The notes under the pieces were generated by a model. That model was not told the DNA's origin and did not search any database. It was given only the letters and a program-made list of their open reading frames with translations. DNA of 53,499 nt from Candidatus Bathyarchaeota archaeon (GTDB lineage: Archaea > Thermoproteota > Bathyarchaeia > 40CM-2-53-6). How positions within the stretch are numbered: the first letter of the stretch is position 1; each line of letters starts with the position of its first letter. Location of the stretch: the NCBI GenBank assembly GCA_005881615.1, contig VBBR01000036.1, forward strand, positions 4,847 through 58,345, in the 5' to 3' direction. The translations under genes were made by a program, and so were the position numbers. Below, piece after piece: positions 11,757-52,967 of the stretch.

Positions 11757-12971
11757 CTAGTGATGGTCGGTACTACTCAGCATGGTTCCGCTAACCTTCG
11801 CAAGGTGGGTTGGCTTCGAGGCATCGACTCCAGGGATTACCGTAGGCGTCGGGTTCCCAATCAACGCTTCAGCTGCCTCGCCTTTTGAACGGTCGAACCT
11901 CAACCGCCCACACCGTGAGATGTTTATCGCAGCAACCACATCACGGTCGACCCAAATCTCACACTTCCAGCACCGAAGAGCTCTTCTTGGTCTGCCGTCC
12001 GATTGGAGTCTCTCCCCGTATTTCGGACAGATGCTACTGGTCCCAAATGTCTCACGTCTCGACAAACGTACAACGGGTAAACCTATCCAAGCCGCTTTAT
12101 ACTCGATCTGAGATTGAGCCTTGCCAAATGACCATCCGTTCATCCTCCCTCGGAAGCTCTTCCCCTGCCAGTTTCCCTTTCGGTAGAGTCGTCGTATCCC
12201 GCGGATGCTCTCTAATACAACTGCCTTCTTTTCTTCGAACGCTCGGTGCACAATCGATTTCGTGGCATTGTGAAGGAGATTAAGGGCACGGTTTTGTCGG
12301 CGCTTACCATATTTCATCGCAAGCCTCTGCCCGATCCGGCGATCGTTTCTCTTGAAGGACGATACTATGCTCACGGTTGTGTTGGCTATTTCAACGGCCA
12401 TAGACAGATCGTATTGGATAACTGTCTCTTCGTCTCCGCAAGTCAAGTTGCGCAGGTTTCGGTCAACACCTACCGTGCCTGTGCACTCAAGCGTCACAAC
12501 CTCCTTTGAGATACAGAGACTCAGTGTGGTAGCAGTAAGTGTGAAGGAGCGCACACGCAGGGTTTTGTCGGATAGTACTAAGGCGGTATGCTTCGTCAGA
12601 GGAATTGTTTCGTATGCCTTTCGGCCTATCGGTATTTGCAAGTGACCATTCTGAATCTTGAAGTTGTAGCACGAGATCAGCAGGGGCTTAACTGCGTATG
12701 GACTCTTTGTAGCGAAACCTCTCCTCAGAGATTTCTTTCTTGAGGCCAAGATACCTGCGGCTCGGGATATTGCACAGAGCTTGTAGCAGGATGGAGAAGG
12801 GTAGCCCTTGAGCTCTCTGTATGAGAGGAGGCACAGACTCTTGAGGGACGAGACATTCTGCGAAAGCCCGATCACTATGCATCGATTTACCATTCTTCTG
12901 AATAAGTCGAGAAGTTCCAGAACCTCGGTCGACGGAGAATAGTTCTGCTTTACTGACTTTTTTGCAAGCAC
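11757..12971 (-). CDS. tnpB: TnpB (IS200/IS605-type RNA-guided nuclease)
   Basis: RuvC-like residues GVDRNL, VLESIRGI, VDRDVVAAINI; zinc-finger segment SSICPKYGERL...RCWKCEIW with one expected Cys replaced by Tyr. Confidence 0.88.
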   Translation of the reverse strand: MLAKKSVKQNYSPSTEVLELLDLFRRMVNRCIVIGLSQNVSSLKSLCLLSYRELKGYPSPSCYKLCAISRAAGILASRKKSLRRGFATKSPYAVKPLLISCYNFKIQNGHLQIPIGRKAYETIPLTKHTALVLSDKTLRVRSFTLTATTLSLCISKEVVTLECTGTVGVDRNLRNLTCGDEETVIQYDLSMAVEIANTTVSIVSSFKRNDRRIGQRLAMKYGKRRQNRALNLLHNATKSIVHRAFEEKKAVVLESIRGIRRLYRKGNWQGKSFRGRMNGWSFGKAQSQIEYKAAWIGLPVVRLSRRETFGTSSICPKYGERLQSDGRPRRALRCWKCEIWVDRDVVAAINISRCGRLRFDRSKGEAAEALIGNPTPTVIPGVDASKPTHLAKVSGTMLSSTDHH

Positions 12972-22406: not shown

Positions 22407-22456
22407 TGGGATTCAACAGCTACGCCCTAGTCCGTGCAAAATCCGTTCATAACGGG

Positions 22457-22805
22457 GTTCTGTTAACTTATCGTTGGATAGGTTAACTTGCTCTCATCGA
22501 CTCCAGGGATTACCGTCGTCGTCGGGTTCCATTTCATCGCTTCAACTGGGAGCCCTTCCGCCTCAAGCCCACTCAGGGTCTTTCTTGGCCTGGAACGGTC
22601 GAACCTCAACCGCCCCCAGAACAGGCACTAAGCCTATCATCTATTGTAAGCCTCTCTCACACCCGTAAGCCTCCTTCCAGGTCAATAGACCATTCACAGG
22701 CCTCTTACACAGGCGCTCATACACGACGACGCACCACCATACTCCCTCTGCAAAATAATAGTTTGAGGCCCGTGAAAGTACGATCCAGCGAAGAGTTAAC
22801 AGAGC
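22457..22805. mobile_element. TIR-bounded non-autonomous element copy 1 with TnpB C-terminal tail
   Basis: Ends TCTGTTAACT / AGTTAACAGA; flanking direct repeat TCATAACGG on both sides; about 98.6% identical to copy 2; minus-strand frame GRLRFDRSRPRKTLSGLEAEGLPVEAMKWNPTTTVIPGVDESKLTYPTIS*. Confidence 0.85.
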
Positions 22806-22862
22806 TCATAACGGTAAAGTGCAATGCGGCCCGGGTGTTAGAGACCGAGAAAGGCTGACACC

Positions 22863-47934: not shown

Positions 47935-48047
47935 CGCCGGGAGTGGGATTCGAACCCACGAGGGCGTGACGCCCAACGGCTGTCGTGTCCTGGCCCTTAC
48001 CTCTTGAGATCTCGAGGCCGTCGCTTTAACCACTCAGCCATCCCGGC
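47935..48047 (-). tRNA. tRNA-Ser (CGA) with anticodon-loop intron
   Basis: GCCGGGA/TCCCGGC acceptor, discriminator G, anticodon arm ACGGC-CTCGAG|intron ~47982-48010|A-GCCGT, long variable arm GGGCGT-C-ACGCCC, T arm GTGGG-TTCGAAT-CCCAC. Confidence 0.9.
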
Positions 48048-52229: not shown

Positions 52230-52606
52230 CTTGTCTTTCCCACTGGCGTGATTCTGAGGTATAGCTTCTCGTCTTTCTCTTTGGTCTCAACAAGCCCGGT
52301 GACCTCGAGGCCACGAGGGATTAGCCGGTTGGCTGATTCTAAATCATCGACAAGGAGGGTGATCTTTTCCGCGTCTAGATCTTGGAATCTTGGACTGTAT
52401 TTCAGGTTCCAACCACTCAAGTATAGGTAGCGTCCGTCGAACTCGTAAATTACGGGAACGATGTGGGGTTGGGAGTCCTCACAGACGAACGCGATTCTTG
52501 CCAAGCTTCTCTCCATCAGGTATCGGAATTCTCTCTCGGTGAAACCTCTGACACCGTCTTTATGTCGCATATCTCCGTTAGATTGTTTGTTGCTGATCAT
52601 TTTCAT
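52217..52606 (-). CDS. PPOX-family (pyridoxamine oxidase-like) protein
   Basis: FTEREFRYLMERSLARIAFVCEDSQPHIVPVIYEFDGRYLYLSGWNLKYSPRFQDLDAEKITLLVDD. Confidence 0.85.
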   Translation of the reverse strand: MKMISNKQSNGDMRHKDGVRGFTEREFRYLMERSLARIAFVCEDSQPHIVPVIYEFDGRYLYLSGWNLKYSPRFQDLDAEKITLLVDDLESANRLIPRGLEVTGLVETKEKDEKLYLRITPVGKTSWGL

Positions 52607-52967
52607 TCACCTATTCGTGAAATAGTTGTCCAGCGTATCTTTGTTGGTAGTCATCAGTCGATGAAGCCGAGTCCAACGGCGAGATGTGGGCTCTGGCTCG
52701 AAAGAGCCGACTGGGCCGATGCTGGGTAGAAGGTTGCCATGACCAAGCGTAAAACCCTGACCTGCAAACGGTCTAGCTGGCCCGGTGAATGCCAGGCGAG
52801 AGCCGTGAGGTTCGCGGCCGTCGCGTCTGCATGTGAAGCAATGGTACAGGAACCCCTGACTGAAGGTAATCCTGAAAGTCGATGCCGATGAGTCAAGCCC
52901 CAGATCAAATCGAAGACTTGACAGAACCTGTCGCATCATGTCTGAACTAGCTACTGGTCAGTCACGC

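Follow-up and report, generated by a model that had tools for sequence, protein, structure and literature searches.

A tnpB-only transposon family of a bathyarchaeon with IS6-type ends, and mini-elements that may supply guide RNAs to TnpB

The stretch of DNA considered here (hereafter the window) comprises 53,499 nucleotides of contig VBBR01000036.1 of a Candidatus Bathyarchaeota archaeon, and holds two copies of a 351-bp element, a third related mini-element, and a gene for the nuclease TnpB. An earlier note, made from the letters of the window alone, had singled out the first copy as an insertion with inverted ends that carries the tail of a tnpB gene. The mini-elements, their target-site duplications (TSDs) and the features predicted at their left end (LE) and right end (RE), including motifs resembling a target-adjacent motif (TAM), are located as follows.

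The 351-bp element and its full-length parents

22456-22806, minus strand: 351-bp mini-element copy 1, RE tip at 22456 and LE tip at 22806, tnpB sense on the minus strand
22448-22455: RE-side TSD of copy 1, CATAACGG, which together with the flank would open the predicted guide
22807-22814: LE-side TSD of copy 1, CATAACGG
22815-22818, minus strand: TAM-like motif TTTA of copy 1, adjoining the outer edge of the LE-side TSD
22440-22455, minus strand: predicted guide of copy 1, about 16 nt (TSD plus flank), modelled on the ISDra2 right-end RNA (PMC8612924)
22456-22614, minus strand: structured RE RNA of copy 1 as far as the RE tip, a predicted omegaRNA scaffold (covariance model R1 and covariation)
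29837-30187, minus strand: 351-bp mini-element copy 2
29829-29836 and 30188-30195: TSD of copy 2, AAGTATAG
30196-30199, minus strand: TAM-like motif CTTG of copy 2
29837-29995, minus strand: RE RNA of copy 2
52571-52928, plus strand: third related mini-element, 358 bp, left end diverged
52563-52570 and 52929-52936: TSD of the third mini-element, TGTCGCAT
52559-52562, plus strand: TAM-like motif TTTA of the third mini-element

The 351-bp element is real and not a product of chance. Copy 1 is bounded by terminal inverted repeats (TIRs), GGTTCTGTTAACTTATCG / AGCTCTGTTAACTCTTCG, and an exact 8-bp TSD, and the end motifs occur five times in the window where 0.03 occurrences would be expected by chance. 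Copies 98-99% identical to it lie elsewhere in the same genome, in which 36 places are related to the element, and both 351-bp copies have pre-insertion sites, with a single TSD, in further genomes of the genus (for copy 1 in G014:C6 and G010:C76, for copy 2 in at least five genomes). The inverted ends and matching flank described in the earlier note are thus borne out, with the extent corrected to 22456-22806 and the proposed 9-bp repeat to the 8-bp CATAACGG; as duplications throughout the family are 8 bp long, the ninth matching T is attributed to chance. The minus-strand reading frame GRLRFDRSRPRKTLSGLEAEGLPVEAMKWNPTTTVIPGVDESKLTYPTIS, said to resemble the C-terminus of TnpB, is likewise present, and its stop codon falls within the terminal repeat.

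Full-length parents, for which the earlier note had proposed a search of the genome, are 1275-1281 bp long and code only for an intact TnpB. Three reside in the same genome, namely C43:7414-8688 (1275 bp, TSD ACTTTTTG), C178:8015-9292 (1278 bp, TSD GAATCCCA) and one on C47 (1281 bp, TSD ATGAAAGG); all three have the two inverted ends and a single gene, tnpB, with its stop codon inside the end repeat. Further full-length members occur across the genus; at about 1.28 kb they combine GGTTCTGTTAAC-type inverted ends and 8-bp duplications with a sole product, a TnpB whose RuvC residues are intact. Most paired copies have TIRs and an exact 8-bp TSD, and the two tips differ, being GGCTCTG or GGCACTG at the LE and GGTTCTG at the RE. 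Because parents with the same ends and exact 8-bp TSDs exist, the 351-bp element is neither of IS605 type nor a chance hybrid, so that from the original suggestion of a hybrid or internally deleted element the internally deleted derivative survives and the IS605 hybrid does not. An origin from IS605 or IS607 elements was rejected on the same TIRs and TSDs.

The mini-elements come in several sizes (147, 180, about 351, about 358-368 and about 390 bp) and retain both tips along with the 3' end of tnpB, namely its final 110-160 bp. At one orthologous site, where the flanks are 83% identical over 3.5 kb, one species has a 391-bp mini-element (L048/L016, on G000:C120) and the other a 1319-bp element from another tnpB subfamily (L085, on G014:C9); the TAM-like motif is identical in the two and the TSD almost so. 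L018 (G000:C94) and L078 (G004:C27) point to a possible hot spot of insertion, with a common target, GTCTATTCAATTC, beside two oppositely oriented elements.

A predicted structured RNA at the right end and the TnpB it may serve

The two features of the local tnpB gene are the following.

11757-12971, minus strand: tnpB gene belonging to the same clade; its 404-aa product is 61% identical to TnpB from the full-length element on C43
11784-11908, minus strand: RE RNA of the local tnpB, RE tip GGTTCCGCTAACC at 11784

The last 150 nt of 53 right ends, from full-length and mini-elements together, were aligned and folded with RNAalifold. In the named five-helix structure 89.7% of pair cells are paired, as against 80.7% in shuffled alignments and 21-41% when the structure is slid along the sequence, and changes on both sides of paired cells number 142 versus 57.8. 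One helix has the sequence CGGGGC/GCCCCG among tnpB elements but GCTCTC/GAGAGC among mini-elements, and the terminal helix switches too. Single-sequence folding of the RE of the 351-bp element gives a z of only -1.84, so that the case for an RNA rests on covariation; a search of Rfam with the element returned no match even at E 10. Read from the alignment, a structured RNA overlaps the 3' end of tnpB and finishes at the RE, as in OMEGA (obligate mobile element-guided activity) systems, and its expression with a guide derived from the flank is predicted.

The covariance model R1 matches copy 1 (G000:C4:27302-27460, minus strand, E 6.3e-35), which is itself in the training alignment, and the 3' end of the local tnpB (G000:C4:16630-16754, E 8.5e-25), which lies outside it. 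RNA structure in common with the local tnpB, for which the earlier note had proposed a comparison, is present; the outcomes set against its proposal, a tnpB-free parent encoding a DDE transposase or a lack of shared RNA structure, were not found. R1 recovers 37 right-end RNAs in the genome itself and 59 in G017, many of them training sequences, and the 37 compare with only four intact tnpB genes in the same genome. The RNA is retained in nearly every mini-element, in agreement with the earlier idea that the tail is a guide-RNA end which may serve TnpB in trans.

It might be argued that the tnpB tail is just what internal deletion left behind and does not function as an RNA, given that parental remnants are common in miniature inverted-repeat transposable elements and that one copy, on C140, has no RNA core. 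Among the mini-elements compared, however, the 100-160 bp at the RE are kept, whereas the LE resembles the parent over 23-29 bp or not at all. Conservation is also higher in the RE half (0.81-0.96 versus 0.59-0.78 in the 390-bp mini-elements), and the helices covary between mini-elements and full-length members, which makes a mere relic improbable.

The proteins themselves resemble TnpB nucleases. The RuvC triad (D170, E253, D341) is invariant among seven of them, PF07282 (the TNB domain, a Zn-ribbon) is matched with E 1.3e-15, sequence matches in the PDB are to TnpB and Cas12f, and Foldseek matches are to Cas12f, ISFba1 TnpB, ISDra2 TnpB and Fanzor2. By sequence, then, they carry the D-E-D triad and Zn-ribbon of TnpB nucleases. 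In the local TnpB a tyrosine replaces a Zn-ribbon cysteine (CPKYG versus CPRCG), and no left end is recognisable for this gene; the local TnpB may be decaying, though its reading frame remains open.

Ends of IS6 type and the probable moving transposase

Members of the IS6 family have GG tips, a CTGT motif and 8-bp duplications (PMC7986276). The sequences of the present family show the same ends, a GG-tipped TIR with CTGT and an 8-bp TSD, and where an IS6 element would encode an IS6-type DDE transposase the full-length members encode only TnpB. A set of 35 archaeal cargo transposons with a SWIM domain and a DDE transposase, mostly from Bathyarchaeia and neighbouring classes, possess TIRs of the GGTTCTGT type along with exact 8-bp TSDs; the TIRs of isolated SWIM-DDE genes were missed by blind search and found once the search was TIR-guided. 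The transposase of one (L192) scores 128.5 bits with the NCBIfam model transpos_IS6 (cut-off 125). Within the same genus, G005:C27:4417-7501 encodes, between the tips GGTTCTG/GGCTCTG, a transposase that is intact and scores 102.8 bits, under the cut-off, and G011:C31:1179-3453 (L183) has a TIR identical in 14 of 14 positions to that of the tnpB elements, with a truncated transposase of which an N-terminal remnant is left (40% identity over 81 aa). Thus the archaeal, SWIM-bearing members of the IS6 family (IS26/IS240) share the GG tips, CTGT and 8-bp TSD and, in the same genus, the 14-bp TIR; the cargo elements examined carry a transposase and passenger genes without tnpB, and the present family is the reverse.

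These IS6-type ends and TSDs, and the related elements in the same genus, make it likely that an IS6-type transposase mobilises the family in trans. This evidence is indirect, as the element's own genome, 89% complete, shows no IS6-type transposase (PF13610), a point that weighs against the proposal. Among the elements read, no composite with both an IS6 transposase and tnpB inside one pair of ends was seen.

The cargo of L183 consists of a Fic-domain gene and a ribbon-helix-helix-like gene. Other archaeal IS6-type SWIM-DDE elements (L244-L323, L191-L203) carry restriction-modification-like and other defence-like genes; these insert beside TATA-like sequences, sometimes abutting the end of another element with the same TSD.

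The insertion-site motif and a possible route of homing

Twenty-eight insertions were selected by TIR and TSD only and oriented by tnpB. Reading outward from the TSD on the LE side (the tnpB-5' side), A or G is found in all 28, then T in 27 and then T in 21, which is summarised as YTTR. The dinucleotide TR adjoins the TSD in 27 of 28 cases on the LE side and in 2 of 28 on the RE side (background 0.10; Fisher p 3e-12); copies that lack an intact tnpB have it in 15 of 15 cases, and a held-out copy (L089) fits the motif. The TSD sequence itself shows no conservation. The motif thus lies outside the TSD, 8 bp from the LE, and does not abut it.

This position is the one demanded of a TAM if the guide starts with the TSD, since the guide would be the RE flank, that is the TSD and what follows, and an empty site must then read TAM, TSD, flank. 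In ISDra2 the RNA ends with about 16 nt of flank and the TAM is 5' of the target (PMC8612924). We infer that YTTR is the TAM of this TnpB, which would be a new one, and the motif is consistent with RNA-guided cutting next to a TAM. Its enrichment may mean either that only such insertions home or that insertion itself is aimed there.

An alternative is that the one-sided YTTR reflects the target preference of a DDE transposase that recognises LE and RE differently, TnpB and its RNA being irrelevant to the site pattern. The two tips do differ, TTTG adjoins the TSD on one side in several of the class's IS6-type elements, NTTR adjoins 10 of 70 sides of the 35 tnpB-free IS6-type elements (background 0.069, p 0.02), and in IS605 the TAM doubles as the transposase target (PMC8612924). 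The tnpB-free elements, however, show a weak, two-sided TATA-like preference rather than a sharp one-sided YTTR, symmetric DDE ends seldom orient insertion, and the position of the motif is precisely the one required by a guide that begins with the TSD; transposase preference is accordingly judged an unlikely source of the pattern. Still more remote is promoter capture, whereby insertions 3' of a TATA-like box and start region would be retained in the orientation that allows transcription of tnpB or the RE RNA. On the LE side, positions -7 to -12 outside the TSD show a weak A/T signal that hints at it, but no position exceeds 0.15 bits, compared with 0.9-1.5 bits for the base-fixed motif.

We therefore favour, with fair confidence, the reading that the 351-bp element is a mini-element, itself non-autonomous, whose tnpB-only family moves in the manner of an IS6-type DDE element, and that such mini-elements are served by TnpB in trans. 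An IS6-type transposase acting in trans would copy the elements into new sites. TnpB would bind the RE RNA, in trans in the case of mini-elements, with the 8-bp TSD and following flank as guide and YTTR as TAM, and the ribonucleoprotein would cut the empty allele (TAM-TSD-flank), whose repair copies the element in. Occupied sites would be spared, for only eight guide bases match next to the TAM there. Cutting by TnpB followed by repair copying has been proposed in gene-drive work on IS605 in plasmids (PMC11870625). The structure, the sites and the intact TnpB residues are read from sequence; expression, binding, cutting, the identity of the TAM and the moving transposase are predicted steps. 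Several observations besides the missing transposase weigh against this account: some full-length copies have no TSD and often no motif either; most of the covariation stems from one or two subfamily switches, so that independent events are few; the C140 mini-element without the RNA core (292 bp) still has its TSD and motif; and the AlphaFold model is of low confidence (predicted local distance difference test score, pLDDT, 62). On the whole, the earlier observation is confirmed and its interpretation partly supported and extended.

A bolder version, to which we give even odds, regards the mini-elements as selfish elements of a guide-RNA-only kind, in which every insertion rewrites the guide of a TnpB made elsewhere. 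There would be many cheap guide loci per nuclease and homing in trans, on an IS6-type copy-in transposon whose TnpB is uncoupled from its usual companions, the peel-and-paste transposases, with the TSD as the first eight guide bases.

The role of TnpB is usually explained through the excision step of IS605 and IS607 transposases. The present family resembles IS200/IS605 elements (IS1341 included) in its TnpB nuclease gene, the structured RNA at the tnpB 3' end, the TAM-like motif on the LE side, and the occurrence of tnpB-only copies and mini-derivatives. It differs in having inverted ends and 8-bp TSDs and no Y1 transposase, and in a motif 8 bp from the left end where that of IS200/IS605 touches it; the absence of TIRs and TSDs, the subterminal hairpins and the abutting motif of that family are not its features, and empty sites hold a single TSD. 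In its predicted working it resembles an IS605-type TnpB element, yet it falls outside the IS605 family, and tnpB-only elements have been stated to lack TIRs and TSDs (Bao and Jurka, PMC3627910). The nearest precedent is found in Fanzor1 and Fanzor2* of eukaryotic DDE transposons, where a nuclease of the TnpB lineage lies inside elements with TIRs and TSDs, some of them non-autonomous (PMC3627910, PMC10711439). For Fanzor the TSD has been proposed as part of the RNA scaffold (PMC10711439), whereas here it is assigned to the guide, because the motif lies outside the TSD and the TSD is unconserved. No report of TnpB in IS6-type elements was found in the open-access literature, and this appears to be a TSD-making archaeal transposon family that uses TnpB without its usual partner transposases. 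If so, a family of prokaryotes that has DDE-type ends and duplications, and is probably propagated by copying, would imply that TnpB is able to serve as a homing nuclease and nothing more, and would illustrate how its guide can absorb a target duplication, in contrast to the Fanzor scaffold proposal; the reading also predicts the YTTR TAM and natural guide-RNA-only elements.

Apart from these elements, the window has a tRNA match at 47935-48047 (minus strand), 113 bp long against a 71-position model, which is probably an intron-containing tRNA.
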